From: Viridibacillus arenosi
GTDB lineage: Bacteria; Bacillota; Bacilli; Bacillales_A; Planococcaceae
Length of the DNA: 64,000 nt
Direction of reading: 5' to 3'
Assembly: GCF_001955655.1 (NCBI RefSeq)
Contig: NZ_MSPW01000003.1
Location: 1 to 64,000 of the forward strand
In this document: positions 7,388 to 61,295 of the stretch, one piece after another
How positions within the stretch are numbered: the stretch's first letter is position 1
How the letters are laid out: the number at the start of each line of letters is the position of its first letter
Program-made: the position numbers and the translations under genes
Notes under the pieces: model-generated
Told to the model about the DNA's origin: nothing
Databases searched by the model: none
The model's input: only the letters and a program-made list of their open reading frames with translations

Positions 7388-7625
7388 CTGAACACGATGA
7401 TGGGAAGTAGTAGCAAGCACGTTTTTTTTAGAGAGTCAGCGGTTGGTGGAAGCTGATAGAAGCACTTGTGAATCCGTCCTGGAGTTGCACAGTCGAAGTA
7501 ATGTAAGTAGGCTGTAGCCGGCTGAAATGCCGTTATGAAATAAGTGGATTAGGTATATGCCTAATCAATTAGGGTGGCAACGCGGGTAGCTCTCGTCCCT
7601 TTTTAGGGATGGGGGCTTTTTTGTG
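7388..7625 (+). promoter_or_regulatory. T-box leader of serS
   Basis: The T-box core AGGGTGGCAACGCGG lies at 7571-7585, directly before a terminator (TCTCGTCCCT...AGGGATGGGGG plus T-run, about 7590-7624). Upstream is the stem I region, with AGAGAGTC...GGTTGGTG near 7432-7447 and a candidate specifier TCC (Ser) near 7473-7475 after GTGAA. Uncharged tRNA-Ser would stabilise the antiterminator and let transcription reach serS. A possible promoter is TTGCAA (7340) and TACAGT (7363), 17 nt apart. The specifier assignment is an inference from position. Confidence 0.9.
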
Positions 7626-13270: not shown

Positions 13271-13982
13271 TTTCAAACCCCCACACTCTCTTTTGATACG
13301 ATACTCTTTATTCTTATTATCCAATAACTCTTCGATTACTACATCCTTAAATGAATAAATCGTTCCCATTACGAGAGAGAGTAAATATAAAAGGAAAAAA
13401 ACCATTAAACATGGTAATAAGAAAAATGTTGCAACTCTACAATTGTTATTTAATTCTTTACCAATGGTTATGTGCTAACTTCTTTCAATATTTGAATTTC
13501 AATAAATTTAAAATCTGTTTCAATAAAGTATAGCCTTACGAAATAAAGATGAGGTAAAGATACCATTAGAGATATTAGAGAATGAACTCCAAAAGCTCAA
13601 AAATTTAGCAGTGAATGTGAATATAAATGGAAAATGAGAATTCGAATCCCCCATAAGTGAAAAAACCTTTTATTTTTCACAAGTGAAAATAAAAAAGAGA
13701 GGAACGCAATAGGTTGTGTTCGTTTATTTGTAAAGTGAATTAAAGTAGTTGCATCTGACGTAACGGTAGATATTATACTTAAGAAAAGGGAAATGAAAAT
13801 ATGTATTCAATTGGTCAATTTGCGTACAAATTCGCATGTTTCTTATCAATAGTAGGTAACTTTAGAAAGTAGTGAAGCAACGCTATTGACAAAACTGCTT
13901 TTTCGTGAGATAATAATTTTTATGCTGATTAGCTAGTTTATAAATATTGGCATTCTACTAAATGTTTTTGTAGATACTTATT
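13271..13982. other. 712-base intergenic region with decayed fragments
   Basis: No intact gene is visible. A plus-strand piece near 13540-13640 reads RNKDEVKIPLEILENELQKL and ends in NVNINGK plus stop, with no start. ATG 13801 opens MYSIGQFAYKF, reminiscent of MerR-family starts, but stops after 23 codons. A hairpin at 13667-13697 (CTTTTATTTTTCAC with its near complement) is terminator-like in both directions. These look like the remains of one or two lost genes. Confidence 0.4.
13667..13697. terminator. Hairpin, possible bidirectional terminator
   Basis: CTTTTATTTTTCAC (13667-13680) pairs with GTGAAAATAAAAAAG (13683-13697), with a 2-base loop. Being A/T rich on both flanks it could act on either strand. 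Confidence 0.5.
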
Positions 13983-14196
13983 CACACTGGAGTGACTTTG
14001 GGGTCACAAGGACGCAAAAGAAGGTAGGGTTTGCGTTGCTTAGGTTAGAAAGCTAACCAGTGGAATTTTACCGCGGTACAGAAAGCTATAGGCTTTTGAG
14101 TAAATATTCCCCGGATGATTGGGTTGAAATTTGAGTTTTATTAAAATTAGCTAATTATAAATTAAGGGGTACTCTCATGCTGAGGGTGCCCCTTGT
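13983..14196 (+). ncRNA. Structured RNA of unrecognised class
   Basis: Several helices nest in order. P1 is CACTGG (13985-13990) with CCAGTG (14057-14062). P2 is GTGAC (13992) with GTCAC (14003). P3 is ACGCAAA (14012) with TTTGCGT (14030). P4 is GGTTAG (14043) with CTAACC (14053), which competes with P1 for two bases. P5 is GGAATTTTA (14062) with TAAATATTCC (14101), and AAAGC/GGCTTT lies inside it. A 14 bp hairpin (AAGGGGTACTCTCA with 14181-14194) follows. The compact multi-branch plan, P1/P4 overlap and final hairpin suit a riboswitch or stable small RNA. It precedes the HAAS gene by about 230 bases, with a terminator between. I could not match it to a class I know. Confidence 0.5.
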
Positions 14197-15420: not shown

Positions 15421-15604
15421 CAATCCTACCAAATATCATACAGGAAACGACTAAGTCGTTTTTACATGAATTATTCTTATGTGTAAAAGATTATGAAGTA
15501 TCACAAATAGATGTTGAATTAAGCATTATTTCTTTATTTATGCAATGATTATTGACAGTTAAAAGAATCTGTTGCATGCTTATAATTAAATATTTAGCGA
15601 AAAG

Positions 15605-15831
15605 AAGACTAGTATGTGTGATCTTACTGTATAAGAGAGCGATGTTCACCGGCTGCAAGACATCGTAACAGCAAACACACGGAACCTACTTCTTAGCTCC
15701 TATGCAAACATAGGCGCAGTCTCAAGCGTTATGAGGTTGAGTGGGGTGCATTTAATGCATTCAACTAAGGTGGTACCACGAGAAGTAACCCTTTTCGTCC
15801 TTGATATATTCGAGGGCGAAAAGGGTTTTTT
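15605..15831 (+). promoter_or_regulatory. T-box leader of proBA
   Basis: T-box core AAGGTGGTACCACG at 15767-15780 is followed by a terminator: AACCCTTTTCG (15787-15797) with CGAAAAGGGTT and T-run to about 15831. Stem I sequence with AGAGAGCGATG lies upstream, and CCT in GGAACCTAC (15685-15687) is a plausible proline specifier. Bacillus proline biosynthesis genes are known T-box targets responding to uncharged tRNA-Pro, which fits the genes behind it. Confidence 0.9.
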
Positions 15832-53339: not shown

Positions 53340-53372
53340 TGTGTTAACCTAAATTAAAAATAGGTTTACAAA
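53340..53372 (+). promoter_or_regulatory. BirA (biotin repressor) operator
   Basis: TGTTAACC (53342-53349) and GGTTTACA (53363-53370) are inverted half-sites separated by 13 bases, flanked by T and A runs. This matches the Bacillus BirA box (TTGTTAACC, 13-15 nt, GGTTAACAA) as I remember it. The right half-site covers the -35 hexamer of the promoter, so BirA-biotinyl-AMP binding would block transcription of bioY and the genes behind it. Confidence 0.82.
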
Positions 53373-53393
53373 AAGATATAAAAGTTTTATTAT
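53365..53393 (+). promoter_or_regulatory. Sigma-A promoter of the bioY operon
   Basis: TTTACA (53365-53370) and TATTAT (53388-53393) are each one base off consensus and are 17 bases apart. Transcription would start near 53400, giving a 130-base leader. Confidence 0.75.
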
Positions 53394-53451
53394 CATAATT
53401 GTGTACGATAATCATCATCAAATTGAGTTCTCTTGATGTCGTTCACGACTC

Positions 53452-53492
53452 TTCAAAGCGCTTTGAAATTATTCACATTGTCGACGATGTGA
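53452..53492 (+). promoter_or_regulatory. Two palindromes in the bioY leader
   Basis: TTCAAAGCGCTTTGAA (53452-53467) is a perfect 16 bp palindrome. TCACATTGTCGACGATGTGA (53473-53492) pairs in nine of ten positions. They lie between the start point and the ribosome binding site, so they could be operators for a second regulator or a hairpin in the mRNA leader. No family consensus known to me matches. Confidence 0.5.
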
Positions 53493-53530
53493 GAATTGTA
53501 CATAAATCTACTATAACGGAGATGAAATGA

Positions 53531-54109
53531 TTGAATACAAAAGATATGGTGATGGCCGCTCTATTTGCTGCAGTAATTGCAGTTCTAGGACTTATTCCAC
53601 CGATACCATTATCATTTATACCTGTACCGATTACAGCACAAACTTTAGGCATTATGCTTGCAGGAAGCTTTTTAGGACGTAAAGTAGGCACATTAAGTGT
53701 CTTAGTTTTTCTAGCATTAGTTGCGTTAGGTACTCCACTCTTATCAGGTGGACGTGGAGGTCTTTCAGTTTTTATGGGACCATCAGTTGGTTATTTAATT
53801 AGTTGGCTAATCGCAGCTTTCGCTATCGGATATTTAACAGAAAAATTTTGGGACAATATGAAAGTGTGGAAGTTAATAATAGTAAACTTCGTTGGAGGTG
53901 TTCTACTAATTAATATCATTGGAGCACCGGTAATGGCTATTATGACTGACACGTCTATTTGGGCAAGTATTACAGGGGCGATAGCATTTTTACCTGGAGA
54001 TTCGATTAAAGCAGTAGTTGCAGCAATCATTGCAGTTCAGTTAAAAGCTGTGAGTCCTATAAAGAAAAAAACACTTGTAATATCACAAAATATGCAGCAT
54101 TTCAATTAA
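53531..54109 (+). CDS. bioY: Biotin ECF transporter substrate-binding component BioY
   Basis: 192 aa membrane protein with six helices. MAALFAAVIAVLGLIPPIPL and FIPVPITAQTLGIMLAGSFL, followed by GRGGLSVFMGPSVGYLISW, are the BioY signature including the G-x-G region. It binds biotin and works with EcfA, EcfA' and EcfT, here encoded in the same cluster. TTG 53531 has GGAG about 9-10 nt upstream. The BirA operator upstream confirms the biotin link. A terminator follows the stop codon. Confidence 0.95.
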   Translation: MNTKDMVMAALFAAVIAVLGLIPPIPLSFIPVPITAQTLGIMLAGSFLGRKVGTLSVLVFLALVALGTPLLSGGRGGLSVFMGPSVGYLISWLIAAFAIGYLTEKFWDNMKVWKLIIVNFVGGVLLINIIGAPVMAIMTDTSIWASITGAIAFLPGDSIKAVVAAIIAVQLKAVSPIKKKTLVISQNMQHFN

Positions 54110-54115
54110 AAACGT

Positions 54116-54150
54116 GTAAGAGGAGATAAGCACTTCTCCTCTTATTTTTC
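54116..54150 (+). terminator. Intercistronic terminator between bioY and the ligase
   Basis: AAGAGGAGA with TCTCCTCTT (9 bp), 8 nt loop, then ATTTTTC. It is 33 bases before the ligase start, so it should lower expression of the downstream genes relative to bioY but need not stop it. Confidence 0.7.
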
Positions 54151-54182
54151 AAATTATTTAGTTTATAGAGTGAGGTAATTCT

Positions 54183-55658
54183 ATGAATATTGTCGATCAA
54201 ATAAGAGATTATGCACAAACAACTCCTGATAAAATAGCTATTCAATATAACGAGGTTGCCATTACATATAAAGACTTTATCAATTGTATCCATCAAGTTG
54301 GGAATGGTCTATTAAGTAAAAGCACTGAAAAAAATAATAAAGTAGCAATTTTCATGCACAATAAAGTGGAATTTCTTGAAGTTTTCCTAGGCGCGATTTC
54401 AGCAGGCTATATACCTATTCCCATGGATCCAAAATGGAGTGATAAGGAGATTAGTTATGTATTAAGTATTTGTGAACCAACAGTACTTTTAATTGATGAC
54501 GAATTTAAGGGAAAGGTAATGAACGTACATTATCCTGTCATTGTTGTAGGGGGAAATTATATTGAGTGGAGACAGCAGTATAGTACAAGAATTCCTAATA
54601 TATTGGAACAACCAACGACACTATTCATAGGTTTTACATCTGGTACAACAGGCGATCCAAAAGGTTTCGTTCGTTCTCACCATTCGTGGATTGAAAGTTG
54701 TTATGCAACAAAAGATGCATTTTTAATGAAACAACAAGACCATGTTATTGCACCAGGACCTCTCGTACATTCTATGTCACTTTTCGCCGCTATTAATACG
54801 CTATTCATTGGGGCTACCTTCCATTTAATTGATAAATTCTCTCCGGTAAAGGTAGTGCAAGAAATGCAAAAAGTTGAAAATATAGTGCTTTATGTAGTTC
54901 CAACGATGATAGAAGGCATACTTTCTTATTTAAGAAAACATACAGTCAACTTTTTTGAGCCTAAATCTATTATTTCCTCTGGAGCAAAATGGACTGAGGA
55001 GTCTAAATTAGAAGTACTAGAATTATTTAGAAATAGTGATGTTTTCGAGTTTTACGGATCTTCTGAAGCAAGTTATATTGCGTATTTACCAGCTACTGAA
55101 CAAATTATTAAACCAAAATCAGTAGGTAAACCTTTTCCAAAAGTGAAGATTTCGATTCGTCATGATGATGGAACGGAAGTAGAAACTGGTGAGATAGGTC
55201 AATTATTTGTTTCAAGTGATATGGTGTTTGATTGCTATTTTAAAAATGAAATAGAAACAGATAAAGTATTGCAAGGAAGTTGGTTAGCACTTGGAGATTA
55301 TGCTTTAAAGGATAAGGAAGGTTATTTATACATTGTAGGTAGAGCAAAAAATATGATGATAACTGGTGGTCTAAATGTATTTCCAGAGGAAGTTGAGGAT
55401 GTATTACGTTCATTAGATGAAGTATCTGAAGTTTTGGTATATGGTCAACCTGATACGTATTGGGGTGAAAAAATCGTTGCTATCATTCAATGGAAATCGA
55501 GCAAAGAGTTGTCACATTCTCAAATTAAAGAGTATTGTAGGAAGCGTTTAGCAACTTATAAAATACCGCAAATTATAAAGTCAGTAAAGGATTTCCAATA
55601 TACAGGTAGTGGGAAAATTGCTAGAGATAAGATGCAAAAACAGATAGTGGAGGCTTGA
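54183..55658 (+). CDS. Acyl-CoA ligase (AMP-forming), YhfT-like
   Basis: 491 aa ANL-superfamily enzyme. The phosphate loop reads FTSGTTGDPKGF, the A5 region FEFYGSSEASYI, A7/A8 ALGDYALKDKEGYLYIVGRA with GGLNVFPEEVEDVL, and the C-terminal catalytic Lys lies in SGKIARDK. It activates a carboxylic acid with ATP and CoA. The position after bioY and before a thiolase matches the yhfU-yhfT-yhfS cluster of B. subtilis, known as a predicted BirA target. A fatty, dicarboxylic or pimelate-like acid is a possible substrate, by inference. GTGAGG is 7 nt upstream of ATG 54183. Confidence 0.9.
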   Translation: MNIVDQIRDYAQTTPDKIAIQYNEVAITYKDFINCIHQVGNGLLSKSTEKNNKVAIFMHNKVEFLEVFLGAISAGYIPIPMDPKWSDKEISYVLSICEPTVLLIDDEFKGKVMNVHYPVIVVGGNYIEWRQQYSTRIPNILEQPTTLFIGFTSGTTGDPKGFVRSHHSWIESCYATKDAFLMKQQDHVIAPGPLVHSMSLFAAINTLFIGATFHLIDKFSPVKVVQEMQKVENIVLYVVPTMIEGILSYLRKHTVNFFEPKSIISSGAKWTEESKLEVLELFRNSDVFEFYGSSEASYIAYLPATEQIIKPKSVGKPFPKVKISIRHDDGTEVETGEIGQLFVSSDMVFDCYFKNEIETDKVLQGSWLALGDYALKDKEGYLYIVGRAKNMMITGGLNVFPEEVEDVLRSLDEVSEVLVYGQPDTYWGEKIVAIIQWKSSKELSHSQIKEYCRKRLATYKIPQIIKSVKDFQYTGSGKIARDKMQKQIVEA

Positions 55659-55662
55659 TAAT

Positions 55663-56820
55663 ATGGCAGAAGCATTTATCGTACTAGCTAAACGAAGTCC
55701 AATCGGCAAACTTGGCGGTGTCTTAAAGGACATTGAACCGGAGGATTTGTTAGCACAAGTAATTGAAAATATTGTGAATGAATACAATTTACCGGTCAAC
55801 GAAATTGATGATGTCATTATAGGGAATACAATTGGACCAGGTGGTAATATTGCGCGTCTGGCCTTACTAACAGCAAATCTACCTATTGAAGTTCCTGGAG
55901 TGACAGTGGATCGTCAATGTGGGTCTGGATTAGAGGCAATTAATATCGCAGCTCGTCTCATTCAAAGTGGTGCGGGTCATATGTACTTAGCTGGCGGAGT
56001 TGAGAGTGTAAGTAGAGCGCCTTGGCGTATGAAGAAACCTTCATCTCTGTATAGTAATAGTGCTCCAGAAATATATATGCGTTCGAAATTTTCACCAGAT
56101 ACTATCGGAGATCCTGATATGGGTATTGCAGCTGAAAATGTAGCTGAGCAATACAACATTTCACGTGAAGAAATGGATAGATATGCATTTGATAGCCATC
56201 AAAAGGCGCTTGCAACAGATTTTTCGACAGAAATTGTACCGATAACATATAAATCCAGAAATGAAATCGTTACTGTATTTGAGGATGAATGCCCAAGGAG
56301 AACAACAAATATTGAAAAGCTTGCAACACTTAAACCGATATTCAAAGAAGGTGGTGTTGTAACTGCAGGCAATGCATGTCCAGTAAACGATGGTGCAGCT
56401 GTTGTATTACTGATTTCAGGAGATAAATGTAAGGAACTTGGTTTGCAACCTGTTATGAAGTTCGTTGACGCAGTTGCAGCTGGGGTAGATCCAAATTATT
56501 TAGGGATAGGTCCAGTTCCCGCTGTTGAGAAATTATTAGTCAGAAATCAATTACATATTAATTCAATTGAACAAATTGAATTTAATGAAGCTTTTGCATC
56601 TCAAGTACTGGCCTCATTAAAATGTTTGAACATATCAACAACAAAAGTAAATGCGGGAGGAGGAGCTATTGCTTTAGGTCATCCTTATGGTGCATCGGGA
56701 GCCATATTAGTTACACGTTTGTTCGCTCAAATGCAGAAAAAAACTATTAATAAAGCAATTGCTACTTTGGGGATTGGTGGAGGACAAGGACTCGCAACAT
56801 TATTTGAAGGGGTGAACTAG
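55663..56820 (+). CDS. Thiolase-family enzyme lacking the second catalytic Cys, YhfS-like
   Basis: 385 aa thiolase. The nucleophile Cys86 is in VDRQCGSGLEAIN; NEAFASQ and GGAIALGHPYGASG (His340) are intact. The last motif, normally CxGGGxG with a Cys that acts as the acid/base, reads LGIGGGQG, so Gly370 replaces it. Condensation or thiolysis by the usual mechanism would be impaired, or another residue takes over. Start ATG 55663 has GGAGG about 8 nt upstream, four bases behind the ligase stop. It probably works on the ligase's acyl-CoA product. Confidence 0.9.
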   Translation: MAEAFIVLAKRSPIGKLGGVLKDIEPEDLLAQVIENIVNEYNLPVNEIDDVIIGNTIGPGGNIARLALLTANLPIEVPGVTVDRQCGSGLEAINIAARLIQSGAGHMYLAGGVESVSRAPWRMKKPSSLYSNSAPEIYMRSKFSPDTIGDPDMGIAAENVAEQYNISREEMDRYAFDSHQKALATDFSTEIVPITYKSRNEIVTVFEDECPRRTTNIEKLATLKPIFKEGGVVTAGNACPVNDGAAVVLLISGDKCKELGLQPVMKFVDAVAAGVDPNYLGIGPVPAVEKLLVRNQLHINSIEQIEFNEAFASQVLASLKCLNISTTKVNAGGGAIALGHPYGASGAILVTRLFAQMQKKTINKAIATLGIGGGQGLATLFEGVN

Positions 56821-56822
56821 CC

Positions 56823-57266
56823 ATGTCTTTTAAAGCTGGAATGACTTCAGACTTTTTTTATGTAACTGTGAAGCATCAAGATATTCAAAACTTTGCAAGA
56901 AGTATACAAAACAAAAACCCATTACATTTCGATGTGCATAAAGCAAAAAATGCTGGATTTCCTAATCTTCTAGCTCCTCCAACATATCCTATATTATTTT
57001 GGCAAATAGCGAAATTAGATTGGCTTGATCAATTGGATGTGCCGTTAATACATGGAGAACAAAAGTTTAACTATATAAAACCAATTGTTGCAGGTGATAC
57101 ATATATATGCAAAATCTATTTAAAAGAAGTGAAGAAAAAGCAAGGTTCTACAGGATTACTTTGGATATTGAAGCATGTACTTGAAGGTTATCAAAATGAT
57201 GAGTTATCTTTCACATCAGAAACAACTTTGATTATACGAGAATTTCAAGGAAATGAGGTGGATTAA
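56823..57266 (+). CDS. MaoC-like (FAS1-type) dehydratase, non-catalytic half
   Basis: 147 aa hot-dog-fold protein. The early segment VTVKHQDIQNFARSIQNKNP followed by LHFDVHKAKNAGFPNLLAPP is the FAS1-dehydratase/MaoC N-terminal pattern, as in HadA/HadC subunits, which contribute the fold but not the active-site Asp-His pair. The catalytic partner is the next gene. ATG 56823 follows the thiolase stop by two bases. Confidence 0.8.
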   Translation: MSFKAGMTSDFFYVTVKHQDIQNFARSIQNKNPLHFDVHKAKNAGFPNLLAPPTYPILFWQIAKLDWLDQLDVPLIHGEQKFNYIKPIVAGDTYICKIYLKEVKKKQGSTGLLWILKHVLEGYQNDELSFTSETTLIIREFQGNEVD

Positions 57267-57665
57267 TTGGTTTCATTCACAAGAGGTGATTATGTTTGTG
57301 AAAATGAGAGCGTTATTATTTCAGTAAATGATGTAAAGAATTATGCTGAAACTTCTAATGATTTTAATGCGATTCATTTAGATTTTCAAAGTGCAGTAGA
57401 AGCAGGGTTTGAAAGGGAAATTGTACATGGCATGCTTGTAATGGGAATAGCAGAAAGTAGATTGTCTTATGTTTTTCCAACTAGCTTTGTCGTCTCTTAT
57501 GAAACGAAATTTCTTCACCCTGTATTGGTTGGTGAATTATTAACTATTTCATATGTAGTAATAGAAGAAGACCTAGATATTATTACAATTAAAATAGAGG
57601 TAGCTAAAGAAAATGGAAAAGTAGCAATTATAGGTGTCATCCAATTTACAAATGTTGGAGGGTGA
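57267..57665 (+). CDS. MaoC-family (R)-enoyl-CoA/ACP hydratase subunit
   Basis: 132 aa hot-dog protein with the full hydratase-2 motif: YAETSNDFNAIHLDFQSAVE, then AGFEREIVHGMLVMG. The Asp and His in NDFNAIH are the catalytic pair. The overhang helix is present. It should hydrate trans-2-enoyl-CoA to 3-hydroxyacyl-CoA or run in reverse as a dehydratase. TTG 57267 comes directly after the stop of its partner gene, with GAGGTGG upstream; a HadAB-like heterodimer is likely. Confidence 0.88.
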   Translation: MVSFTRGDYVCENESVIISVNDVKNYAETSNDFNAIHLDFQSAVEAGFEREIVHGMLVMGIAESRLSYVFPTSFVVSYETKFLHPVLVGELLTISYVVIEEDLDIITIKIEVAKENGKVAIIGVIQFTNVGG

Positions 57666-57669
57666 GGGA

Positions 57670-58482
57670 ATGCTACAAGAAAAAGTAGTTTTAATAACGG
57701 GTTCTACAAGAGGAATAGGTAGAAGTATGGCAATTCAAATGGCTAAGGAAGGTGCTTTAATTGCCGTGAATGGTACTAATGGAAATAATGTTAAAGCCGT
57801 AGTAGATGATATTAAAACAAGAGGCGGACAAGCAGTTGGTATTTGTGAGAGTGTTGCATCAATATATGGCGCTGAACGAATTGTAAATAAAACTTTAGAG
57901 AATTTTGGGAAACTAGATATTCTCATTAATAATGCAGGTATAACGAGAGATCAATTACTTGTGAAAATGTCAGACCAATCTTGGAATGAAGTGCTAGACG
58001 TCCATTTGACAGGAACTTTTGCGTGTACAAGGGCAGCAGTTCAACATTTGAAAAGTCGGGGTGAAGGGGGATGTATTATTAATTTGACATCAACTGCAGG
58101 TTTGATGGGAACAGTTGGTCAAGTAAATTATAGTGCAGCAAAAGCGGGTATTTTAGGAATGACATTTACATTAGCAGAAGAATTAAAACGTTATGGCATT
58201 CGAGTTAATGCAATAGCACCAGCCGCTTTAACAGATATGACAAAACCGGTCATAGAACGTATTCAAACAAAGTGCAAGGAAGAAAATAAAGAGTTTCCGG
58301 ATTATTGGAAAGTTGGTTCACCTGAAGATGTAGCCAATTTAGCCACTTTATTAGCTAGTAATAGCAGTACTGTAACTGGTAAAGTTTTTTCGGTCAATGG
58401 TTCAAAAATCGGTATTTGGGAAAAGCCCTCACATACAGAACTTTCAATAGAGGAATTAAAAAAAATAGTTAATAGAGATTGA
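57670..58482 (+). CDS. SDR-family 3-oxoacyl reductase, FabG-like
   Basis: 270 aa short-chain dehydrogenase. The cofactor motif is ITGSTRGIGRSMAIQM, then DILINNAGITRDQLLVKM, and the catalytic Ser-Tyr-Lys lies in NLTSTAGLMG...YSAAKAG. It should reduce 3-oxoacyl to 3-hydroxyacyl with NADPH, the step between the thiolase and the MaoC pair. I start at ATG 57670, 8 nt after GGAGG; the frame begins at 57634 inside the hydratase gene. A C-terminal extension ends with a charged helix (LSIEELKKIVNRD). Confidence 0.9.
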   Translation: MLQEKVVLITGSTRGIGRSMAIQMAKEGALIAVNGTNGNNVKAVVDDIKTRGGQAVGICESVASIYGAERIVNKTLENFGKLDILINNAGITRDQLLVKMSDQSWNEVLDVHLTGTFACTRAAVQHLKSRGEGGCIINLTSTAGLMGTVGQVNYSAAKAGILGMTFTLAEELKRYGIRVNAIAPAALTDMTKPVIERIQTKCKEENKEFPDYWKVGSPEDVANLATLLASNSSTVTGKVFSVNGSKIGIWEKPSHTELSIEELKKIVNRD

Positions 58483-58501
58483 TAAAAAGAAGGTGCATGA
58501 T

Positions 58502-59314
58502 TTGCTTAGTTTTGATAATGTGTCATTTGCATATGGACAGCATTTAGTATTGAAAAATATATCACTACAAATTAATGAGGGTGAATTTCTAACGATTGTA
58601 GGTCCAAATGGCTCTGGAAAATCGACTCTATCAAAATTGGTGAATGGGCTTATCCAACCTCATCTCGGTCAAGTTTTGGTAGATGGGTTAATGACACAAA
58701 AGCCAAAAAGTTTAAGAGAGATTAGACGACTTGTTGGTTTGATTTTTCAGAATCCAGATGATCAATTTATAACAACGACAGTTTTTGATGAAGTTATTTT
58801 TGGTTTAGAGAATATTGGGGTAGATCCAGACAATATGAAATTAATTGCTGAAGATGCATTAAAGAAGGTTGATATGCTTTCGTATAAAGGAGTAGAACCA
58901 CATAAACTTTCTGGTGGTCAAAAACAACGTGTGGCTATAGCTGCAATATTAGCAATGAAGCCAAAATATATCGTATTTGATGAATCAACAGCTATGCTTG
59001 ATCCAGAAGGCAGGCAGAATATTATTACTCTTATGCAACAACTACATACAGAAGGAATTACTATCATTCACATTACTCATCACATGGAAGAAGTACTAGT
59101 GGCAACAAGGGTACTTGTTTTAAAAGACGGTCTTATTGTGGCGGATGGAACCCCCTCAGCTATTTTTCATAATAGCAGTGTTATTGAAAGTAATGAACTG
59201 GAAATGCCTCTTGCTCTGAAATTAAAACAATGCTTACGTTCAACGGGTATTAAAGTACCTGAACAGATAATGACTTTGGAAGGGGTTGTTGATTATTTAT
59301 GGACATCAAATTAG
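58502..59314 (+). CDS. ecfA: ECF transporter ATPase EcfA
   Basis: ATPase of the energy-coupling module. Walker A GPNGSGKST, Q loop FQNPDDQFITTTVFDEVIFG, signature LSGGQKQRVAIAAILAM and Walker B YIVFDESTAMLD are complete. I take TTG 58502 (MLSFDNVSFAYG) as start because AGAAGGTG is 7 nt upstream; GTG 58493 is too close to that site. The gene follows the SDR gene and overlaps the second ATPase by 16 bases. It powers BioY here and might also serve other S components. Confidence 0.93.
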   Translation: MLSFDNVSFAYGQHLVLKNISLQINEGEFLTIVGPNGSGKSTLSKLVNGLIQPHLGQVLVDGLMTQKPKSLREIRRLVGLIFQNPDDQFITTTVFDEVIFGLENIGVDPDNMKLIAEDALKKVDMLSYKGVEPHKLSGGQKQRVAIAAILAMKPKYIVFDESTAMLDPEGRQNIITLMQQLHTEGITIIHITHHMEEVLVATRVLVLKDGLIVADGTPSAIFHNSSVIESNELEMPLALKLKQCLRSTGIKVPEQIMTLEGVVDYLWTSN

Positions 59315-60174
59315 AAAGAGCCTCTTTTATTTATCGAAACTCTTCAATTAATAGTCACGAAAGCTTGCGAAATATTAACATATCAATAGAAACTGGTAAG
59401 TGGATATCCGTTATAGGTCATACTGGTTCGGGGAAATCTACATTAATGAAGTTATTAAAAGGCTTAATAGCTCCAACTACTGGTCATTTATTGATCAATG
59501 GAAGAGTAAATGAGCTTTCTAAAAAAGGCAAAGCTCAAATTATTAACGATATCGGATTGGTATTTCAATATCCTGAACATCAATTATTTGAAACAACTGT
59601 TATAAAAGACTTAGTATTTGGTCCCAAAAATCAAGGTATAGAAATGAAAGAAGTCAATAAGAGAGCGGAAGAAATGATAAAACTAGTAGGCCTATCCGAA
59701 GAGTACTTTCTAAAGGCCCCTTTACAATTAAGTGGGGGAGAAAAACGACGTGTGGCTATAGCAACTGTACTTATGATGAATCCTAAGGTTCTTATTTTAG
59801 ATGAACCCACTGCTGGACTAGATCCACTTGGAAGTAAACTGATTTTACAATTGATACATGATTGGTATAAAGCTGGTGGCGGACACCGTACAGTAATTTT
59901 TGTGACACACGAGATGAATGAAGTTGCTGAGTATTCAGATGAAGTACTCGTGATGAATAATGGGGAAATAGCTTTCCAAGAAAGGCCACTTTCACTTTTT
60001 CAAAACCATGATTATGAATTAAAGGAATTCGGATTAGATATTCCAGATACCGTGAAACTACTACAACTAATTGAGCAACGTTTTGGTGATTATATTGAAG
60101 TAGCGTCTTTACAGGAAGAAGTTGTTCTAAAGGAAGTAATAGCTTATTTTAAGAAACAAGGGGCTGAAATTTAG
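59299..60174 (+). CDS. ecfA2: ECF transporter ATPase EcfA'
   Basis: 291 aa second ATPase. Walker A GHTGSGKST, Q loop FQYPEHQLFETTVIKDLVFG, signature LSGGEKRRVAIATVLMM and Walker B VLILDEPTAGLDPLG are present. With EcfA it forms the heterodimer. ATG 59299 is inside the end of ecfA. Its stop overlaps the EcfT start. Confidence 0.93.
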   Translation: MDIKLERASFIYRNSSINSHESLRNINISIETGKWISVIGHTGSGKSTLMKLLKGLIAPTTGHLLINGRVNELSKKGKAQIINDIGLVFQYPEHQLFETTVIKDLVFGPKNQGIEMKEVNKRAEEMIKLVGLSEEYFLKAPLQLSGGEKRRVAIATVLMMNPKVLILDEPTAGLDPLGSKLILQLIHDWYKAGGGHRTVIFVTHEMNEVAEYSDEVLVMNNGEIAFQERPLSLFQNHDYELKEFGLDIPDTVKLLQLIEQRFGDYIEVASLQEEVVLKEVIAYFKKQGAEI

Positions 60175-60980
60175 TGATTGAAAATGTATTGATTGGACAG
60201 TTTATTGATGCATCTTCTATTTTCCATCGTCTAGATCCACGCTCGAAATTAATAAGCTTATTTTTTATCGTTATTGCATTCTTATTAATAGATAATATAG
60301 CAGGATATTTACTAGCTAGTTTTTTAGTAGTTGTCTGTATTACTTGTTCACAAATTCCATTGCGCTTTTTTCTGAAGGGTTTAAAGCCAATTTTATTTAT
60401 TCTAGCATTTACGGTTATCTATCATATTTTGTTCACTAAAGGTGAGAATTTACTATTTCAGTACGGTGTTTTGTCTATATATAAAGAGAGCATTATTGAT
60501 GGGGTTCGCATAGTGTTACGAATTTTATTACTCGTATTAATTACTTCTTTGTTAACCTTAACAACAAAGCCACTGGACTTAGCTCATGGGTTTGAAATAC
60601 TTTGCAAACCATTGAAACGATTGCATTTTCCAGTAGAGCAATTTTCATTAATGCTTGCTATAACATTACGTTTTATACCTACAATAGTAATGGAGTTGGA
60701 CAAAATAATAGATGCGCAAAAAGCGAGAGGTGTTAATTTCGAAGATAAATCATTTGTGAAAAAGGTATTTAGTTATATACCAATTATTGTCCCTCTTTTG
60801 TTTACTTCAATTCAAAGAGCGGAAAATTTGGCAAATGCTATCGACGCTAGAGCATATGGAGATGGAAGTGGACGAACACGTTTTAAGGTTTTACATTTTG
60901 AGAACCGAGATTATCTAGTGATTGGTGCAAGTCTTCTATTAGTTGGTATTTTTTTCTTGCTAAGAATGGTCGGAGGTTAG
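60174..60980 (+). CDS. ecfT: ECF transporter transmembrane protein EcfT
   Basis: 268 aa with five or so helices. The coupling motifs DAQKARGVNFED and AIDARAYGDGSGRT, in which the A-R-G/A triplets contact the ATPases, are well preserved. FHRLDPRSKLISLFFIV is the typical N-terminal segment. GTG 60174 has AAGGGG about 10 nt upstream and overlaps ecfA2. Together with BioY and the two ATPases it forms a complete biotin ECF transporter encoded in one cluster. Confidence 0.93.
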   Translation: MIENVLIGQFIDASSIFHRLDPRSKLISLFFIVIAFLLIDNIAGYLLASFLVVVCITCSQIPLRFFLKGLKPILFILAFTVIYHILFTKGENLLFQYGVLSIYKESIIDGVRIVLRILLLVLITSLLTLTTKPLDLAHGFEILCKPLKRLHFPVEQFSLMLAITLRFIPTIVMELDKIIDAQKARGVNFEDKSFVKKVFSYIPIIVPLLFTSIQRAENLANAIDARAYGDGSGRTRFKVLHFENRDYLVIGASLLLVGIFFLLRMVGG

Positions 60981-60983
60981 AGA

Positions 60984-61295
60984 ATGAAAGTGTTTGGATT
61001 AGTTGTTGATGATAAAACGCGTTGTTTGCATTATCATACGGAGAAGGATATAGTCGCATTGAAATTTAAATGCTGTAATAAATACTATCCTTGTTTTGAA
61101 TGTCATGCTGCATGTGAACTTCATGAACCAGAAGTTTGGTCAAAGAATGAATCAGATGAGTTAGCCGTGCTTTGTGGTATTTGTAACAAAGAACATACGA
61201 TTACAGAGTATGTTGGGACAACTCATTGTTTACAATGTGGATCTAGGTTTAACGAGCGGTGTGAAGCTCATTATCATTTATATTTTGATGTTTAG
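60984..61295 (+). CDS. CHY zinc-finger protein
   Basis: 103 aa Cys/His-rich protein. RCLHYHTEKDIVALKFKC, CNKYYPCFECHAACELHEP, LCGICNKEHTI and THCLQCGSRFNERCEAHYHLY give the ordered Cys and His pairs of the CHY zinc-finger family, with space for several zinc ions. Bacterial members are uncharacterised. GGAGG lies 7 nt before ATG 60984 and four bases from the ecfT stop, so it is probably part of the operon. Its role in biotin transport or acyl chemistry is unknown. Confidence 0.88.
   Translation: MKVFGLVVDDKTRCLHYHTEKDIVALKFKCCNKYYPCFECHAACELHEPEVWSKNESDELAVLCGICNKEHTITEYVGTTHCLQCGSRFNERCEAHYHLYFDV

Follow-up and report, generated by a model that had tools for sequence, protein, structure and literature searches.

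A BirA-box operon of Viridibacillus arenosi joins a biotin importer to acyl-chain enzymes and may serve the salvage of shortened biotin vitamers

The stretch of Viridibacillus arenosi DNA analysed here (contig NZ_MSPW01000003.1 of assembly GCF_001955655.1, positions 1 to 64,000; "the window" is this whole stretch of 64,000 nucleotides) carries an operon in which a biotin importer of the energy-coupling factor (ECF) type stands together with enzymes that process acyl chains, behind a BirA-type operator. We propose that the operon serves BirA-repressed scavenging, in which a shortened biotin vitamer is imported, activated and extended by two carbons, and we give this reading a probability of roughly one in three (0.36). 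A more specific form of the proposal is a shade more tentative: an undescribed salvage pathway that would import bisnorbiotin or another shortened vitamer and rebuild its valerate side chain under biotin repression, by means of a ligase, a thiolase-fold enzyme lacking the second catalytic Cys, a short-chain dehydrogenase/reductase (SDR), a pair of MaoC proteins and FabK. The enzymes are linked to biotin uptake, and elongation tied to scavenging is, as a category, well supported; bisnorbiotin as the substrate is a bold conjecture. The features of the operon, all on the forward strand, are as follows.

53342..53370, +: BirA-type operator, TGTTAACC-N13-GGTTTACA, found by pattern scan and kept in both other Viridibacillus genomes
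53365..53393, +: sigma-A-type promoter, TTTACA-N17-TATTAT, 10 of 12 matches, its -35 inside the operator
53394..53530, +: leader of 137 nt with palindromes TTCAAAGCGCTTTGAA and CACATTGTCGACGATGTG, partly conserved across three Viridibacillus genomes
53531..54109, +: bioY, biotin S-component (PF02632, 126.8 bits; matches the solved BioY 4dve)
54117..54144, +: terminator-like hairpin in the bioY-ligase gap, kept in three Viridibacillus genomes
54183..55658, +: YhfT-like AMP-forming acyl ligase (best match NF005797/PRK07638, 488 bits, short of the equivalog cut-off of 518)
55663..56820, +: YhfS-type thiolase (TIGR01930 over cut-off; PRK06690, which we take to be the YhfS family, 416 bits, short of its equivalog cut-off of 498)
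56823..57266, +: MaoC1, HadA-like dehydratase subunit (PF13452; HadA solved structures)
57267..57665, +: MaoC2, HadB/R-hydratase-like subunit (PF01575; alignment with 1iq6, Asp and His kept)
57670..58482, +: SDR, (3R)-hydroxyacyl-CoA dehydrogenase or FabG-like (FabG/MFE-2-like; NCBIfam, best solved match 2et6)
58493..59314, +: EcfA (TIGR04520, 343.5 bits, over cut-off)
59299..60174, +: EcfA' (TIGR04521, 315.7 bits, cut-off 330)
60174..60980, +: EcfT (PF02361, 142 bits)
60984..61295, +: CHY zinc-finger protein (PF05495, 39.3 bits)

The ten co-directional genes, spanning 53531 to 61295, were confirmed by open reading frames, Pfam and NCBIfam. The distances between them are, in order, 73, 4, 2, 0, 4, 10, -16, -1 and 3 nt, and the bioY-ligase spacing is the sole one above 10 nt; an earlier reading made from the letters alone (the sequence-only reading) had placed nearly all gaps under 35 bases, which holds for every gap but that one. 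Its complete biotin importer stands, as BioY, EcfA, EcfA' and EcfT, the S, A, A' and T units of an ECF importer with a dedicated module, all lie within the operon (NCBIfam, Pfam). The window genome has five CbiQ-family (EcfT) matches, the operon's EcfT and four others. The order bioY, ligase, YhfS-type thiolase is that of the bioY-yhfT-yhfS cluster, and the kinship that had been suggested with yhfU-yhfT-yhfS was thereby confirmed.

We define "named loci" as the best 80 of at least 482 confirmed places recovered by a contig scan with a thiolase alignment, in which the nucleophilic Cys was part of the fetching pattern. They span Bacillota, Azospirillum, other Rhodospirillales, cyanobacteria, Chloroflexi, Marinimicrobia and Erwinia. 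An operon was taken to be a run of genes on one strand spaced by less than 250 nt, and some of the contigs are short; FabK-like, SDR, MaoC and other names were assigned by BLAST similarity (for FabK, 58-83% identity). The ligase is found in 72 of the 80 operons and bioY in 59, followed by the SDR (38), MaoC2 (37), MaoC1 (36), EcfA (31), EcfT (25), a FabK-like gene (17) and the CHY gene (8), and bioA, bioB, bioD and bioF are found in 0 of 80. In these 8 operons the CHY gene closes the ECF module, ahead of fabK wherever the two are found together.

All ten genes recur in unchanged order in two congeners (G200 and G201, both Viridibacillus) and in another genus of the family (G196); G131 carries bioY-ligase-thiolase-MaoC1-MaoC2. 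The closest named relative is V. arvi DSM 16317 (L177), whose thiolase is 95% identical. A ligase-family search that scored only three candidates per genome placed 27 of 398 class members, the window genome included, at E 1e-110 or better. In 30 neighbourhoods (26 genomes from this search plus four relatives, counted by hand from a listing), ligase and thiolase are adjacent in all 30; 28 of the clusters include bioY, 15 both MaoC genes and 12 an SDR. This set overlaps the named loci (L044 and L177 are the same place). MaoC1 was tried as a marker of the cluster and proved misleading, matching in 84 of 200 genomes; of the 29 related loci that it brought up, L005 and L012 alone have the ligase-thiolase-MaoC order. 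A scan of viral contigs with BioY found nothing. An adenine-deaminase-like amidohydrolase lies within a bioY-ecfAAT-ligase-thiolase-SDR operon at L116:6783-8522, L117:6670-8397 and L119:9743-11461, the L117 and L119 proteins sharing 60% and 79% identity with the one in L116.

Biotin synthesis genes were examined in 31 cluster-bearing genomes: the window's, the four relatives and the 26 from the ligase search. bioB is present in 22, bioD in 12, bioA over cut-off in 12 and bioF over cut-off in 13, and none of the four is over cut-off in 9; four of these nine (G354, G494, G374 and G203) have the FabK-like gene in the operon. Within the window genome bioB alone is over cut-off; bioD is missing, bioA and bioF do not reach their cut-offs, and bioW, bioC, bioH and bioI were not searched for. 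The below-cut-off matches there (bioF-like, 408 of 426 bits; bioA-like, 349 of 405 or less) are probably other pyridoxal-phosphate enzymes. A second bioY stands directly before bioB in this genome, with a BirA-type box of its own (L067:9016-10696, contig C39), and the two are likely a dethiobiotin-scavenging pair. The congener G201 (L129) has bioD-bioA, with bioB elsewhere and no bioF over cut-off, which suggests scavenging of 7-keto-8-aminopelargonate.

For the named loci, bioB was sought in 49 genomes (50 loci, mostly isolates, were chosen and L199 was left out; genome completeness is not stated), and it is absent from 23. It is missing from 13 of the 16 genomes with FabK in the operon and from 10 of the 33 without (Fisher p 0.0018, kinship ignored), an association dominated by Paenibacillaceae; the FabK-bearing exceptions with bioB are two Kurthia and Alicyclobacillus. 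The implication is that the cluster cannot supply pimeloyl-CoA to biotin synthesis in those organisms, because its fullest forms are mostly in genomes without biotin synthase. The scavenging reading would account together for three facts: the enzymes travel with the importer and not with the synthesis genes (bioY in 59 of 80 operons, bioA, bioB, bioD and bioF in none), the gene added in completed sets resembles an enoyl reductase, and the cluster persists in organisms obliged to import biotin. The bioY-bioB pair of the window genome and the conserved operator also speak for it.

The operator overlaps the -35 of the promoter, as the sequence-only reading had described, and a BirA-type operator at the promoter marks the operon as a predicted member of the BirA (bioO) regulon. 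The search pattern was derived from the window site itself, which makes its 0 mismatches a matter of construction, and shuffled sequence gives a mean of 0.73 matches at up to 3 mismatches. Relaxed half-site patterns were, genome-wide, not commoner than reversed controls (3 and 0 against 6 and 6; 4 and 4 against 9 and 9), and a pattern with a longer spacer missed the window site, whose actual spacer is 13. Among 46 promoter-like sites, where 38.2 would be expected, this promoter and two others reach 10 of 12 matches. What argues against a chance origin of the operator is its conservation: a BirA-type box (spacer 13-15, at most 3 mismatches) lies upstream in 32 of the 80 related operons, where shuffled sequence predicts 0.25. 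No such box, even with 4 mismatches allowed, stands at the 19 loci that lie outside Bacillota, as expected if another regulator acts there. The leader matched no Rfam family at the gathering threshold, and a riboswitch or other known RNA was rejected. Terminator-like sites in the region are not enriched (4, against 3.7 by chance), and what speaks for the hairpin at 54117-54144 is its conservation in three Viridibacillus genomes; it may keep the enzymes at a lower level than bioY.

Enoyl reductase is absent from the window operon, so that a reductive elongation cycle is incomplete there. The sequence-only reading had remarked on this gap, and relatives fill it. A FabK-like gene ends the clusters of L118, L120, L121 and L123 (83-94% identical to that of L120). 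Two Kurthia (L241, L250), presumably of the window's own family, have the window's order followed by fabK, an unrecognised 104-residue gene replacing MaoC1, and Alicyclobacillus ALC3 (L251) has bioY-fabK-thiolase-ligase. Since the gene added where the cycle is completed is FabK-like (17 of 80 operons) whereas acyl-CoA dehydrogenase is found in 0 of 80, the reductive direction is supported, though still inferred, and chain shortening, which had been offered beside elongation, is disfavoured.

The thiolase provides a further indication of the chemistry. It retains Cys86, Asn308 and His340 and has Gly370 where the second catalytic Cys belongs (CxGxG); Gly takes this position in the window, in 31 of 31 cluster enzymes and in 80 of 80 named loci, and Cys is present in the V. 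arvi paralogue and in the two solved thiolases compared. On these residues the YhfS-type enzyme is not to be classed as a canonical type II acetyl-CoA thiolase. Its remaining Cys-His-Asn set resembles, we assume, that of ketoacyl synthase III, which condenses via decarboxylation. Because the YhfS-type enzyme lacks the Cys that serves thiolases as a base, we propose a decarboxylative condensation, in which it would elongate with a malonyl donor. The families nearest to the window thiolase include 3-oxoadipyl-CoA thiolases (NCBIfam). The published role of the missing residue is to abstract the proton, as Cys378 (PMC3406046), and the degradative thiolase PcaF also has it (PMC7337054).

The ligase is of the fatty-acyl/succinylbenzoate type by NCBIfam and further comparison. 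MaoC2 can be aligned to 1iq6, an (R)-specific enoyl-CoA hydratase, and retains Asp and His, presumably the catalytic residues, and MaoC1 resembles solved structures of HadA; the pair does not reach the NCBIfam equivalog cut-offs for HadA and HadB (75.6 of 180 and 39.2 of 203 bits). In B. subtilis, YhfT passes acyl-adenylates to acyl carrier protein (ACP), and a CoA thioester was not seen, according to a review (PMC10988940). These data favour ACP as the carrier and also a fatty-acid role. Handover to ACP would suit a YhfS that acts like a synthase III and would let housekeeping ACP enzymes finish the cycle in short clusters.

From these observations the following sequence of events can be proposed. 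When biotinyl-AMP is low, BirA would leave the operator and the BioY-EcfAA'T importer would be made together with the acyl-processing enzymes. BioY would import biotin and also biotin with a shortened side chain, such as bisnorbiotin, which is a reported biotin catabolite (PMC11203980) two carbons short. The YhfT ligase would activate the carboxylate as a CoA thioester or as an adenylate handed to ACP, the YhfS condensing enzyme would add two carbons, probably by decarboxylation of a malonyl thioester, the SDR would reduce the 3-keto group and the MaoC1/MaoC2 pair would dehydrate the product. An enoyl reductase would then saturate it to a biotin thioester, the FabK-like protein in relatives and presumably a housekeeping enzyme in the window genome. 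One such round would repair exactly a vitamer two carbons short.

Several points weigh against this proposal. All four synthesis genes are over cut-off in 9 of the 31 cluster-bearing genomes, and many clusters consist of bioY-ligase-thiolase alone. The best solved match of the SDR is a (3R)-hydroxyacyl-CoA dehydrogenase, 2et6, which we take to be a beta-oxidation enzyme, and an acyl-CoA dehydrogenase with a fused MaoC lies further along in 3 of the 30 neighbourhoods (L116, L117, L119). The L120 FabK-like protein is below the NCBIfam cut-off (TIGR03151, 279 of 453 bits) and matches FabK structures first and nitronate monooxygenases next. A gene that would release free biotin from the thioester was not identified. 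Supply of the malonyl donor in turn requires a biotin enzyme, a dependence that would be tolerable because only trace amounts are needed. Finally, surfactin in B. subtilis falls by 38-55% when any single ligase out of four, yhfT among them, is knocked out (PMC10988940).

This last result bears on the alternative that survives best, a biotin-sparing acyl supply, which we regard as possible if doubtful. In biotin shortage acetyl-CoA carboxylase would fail, and the operon would activate and extend or reshape scavenged fatty acids, with the importer co-induced. Such a supply would work whether or not a genome makes biotin; fatty acid synthesis typically uses FabG-, HadAB- and FabK-like enzymes, YhfT belongs with the fatty-acyl ligases, and the B. 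subtilis protein helps provide the 3-hydroxy fatty acid of surfactin (PMC10988940). However, condensation without malonyl needs deprotonation of acetyl-CoA, whereas all 80 named loci lack the Cys that normally serves as the base, and the gene run shared with the importer in 59 of them is left unexplained.

An oxidative role is unlikely. An (R)-specific beta-oxidation spiral, trimming long-side-chain acids taken up from outside, or compounds that resemble biotin, would agree with the affinity of the SDR to (3R)-hydroxyacyl-CoA dehydrogenase and with the acyl-CoA dehydrogenase and fused MaoC near the three related clusters mentioned above, but the distribution of FabK-like genes and acyl-CoA dehydrogenase among the 80 operons runs the other way, the Cys of degradative PcaF (PMC7337054) is missing, and trimming biotin under biotin starvation would be self-defeating. 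The supply of pimeloyl-CoA for de novo biotin, to which the sequence-only reading had inclined, is very improbable: genomes with all four synthesis genes and the nearness of 3-oxoadipyl-CoA thiolases would suit it, but it is contradicted in the window genome unless BioF, BioA and BioD are non-homologous there, nine of the 31 genomes lack all four genes, no synthesis gene occurs in the 80 operons and FabK-bearing operons are mostly in genomes without bioB. Salvage, which that reading had named in passing, is the better fit.

Elsewhere in the window, T-box leaders were found at 7388-7603 and 15591-15805 (Rfam); the genes behind them are, by eye, seryl-tRNA synthetase-like (7720) and glutamate 5-kinase-like (15801). 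A match to the BsrC small RNA family at 13962-14049 on the minus strand (63.6 bits, gathering 38; Rfam) occurs here in Viridibacillus.

BirA control of bioY and of yhfT-yhfS is experimental in S. aureus (PMC6391492, PMC7235819) and is stated for these genes in B. subtilis and S. aureus (PMC11089781); the available portions of these three papers give no biotin-related pathway for yhfT or yhfS. For these BirA-regulated genes, the extended operons fill in most of the steps that had been lacking. The module goes with uptake and persists where biotin cannot be made, and the change in the active site predicts a different chemistry. If vitamer salvage is correct, biotin catabolites would be usable as vitamins by auxotrophs, which bears on cross-feeding in soil and perhaps on staphylococci too, where yhfT-yhfS is BirA-controlled (PMC7235819). 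The literature searched, mostly non-subscription and not covering two earlier papers about the biotin regulon and BioY, describes neither the extended operon nor a salvage of bisnorbiotin in titles or opening lines of abstracts, and the available portions of PMC11089781 and PMC11203980 give no bacterial route for the latter. For Kurthia, which has the FabK-completed operon (L241, L250), a table in a review names a biotin producer that was selected on analogues, bisnorbiotinol among them (PMC11089781).

Among known systems, the operon shares the ligase and YhfS-type thiolase with B. subtilis yhfU-yhfT-yhfS and S. aureus yhfT-yhfS, and bioY with the former, whereas the MaoC pair, SDR, EcfAA'T and CHY protein are additions of the window. 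ECF biotin transporters of the BioMNY type likewise have S, A, A' and T units in one operon; unlike them, the window importer shares its operon with acyl-processing enzymes. The YhfS-type enzyme has the family and the nucleophilic Cys, Asn and His of type II thiolases such as the Zoogloea thiolase and PcaF, and differs in the Gly at the second catalytic Cys. Mycobacterial HadAB resembles the MaoC pair in having two small subunits, one HadA-like and one HadB/R-hydratase-like; the window pair differs in scoring far under the NCBIfam cut-offs and in its biotin context. The bioY-bioB pair of the window genome, with its BirA-type box, parallels the proposed pathway in joining an importer to an enzyme that completes an imported, incomplete vitamer, the step being sulphur insertion in the pair and chain extension in the pathway proposed here. 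In this company, the window operon is a richer variant of a known member of the BirA regulon.

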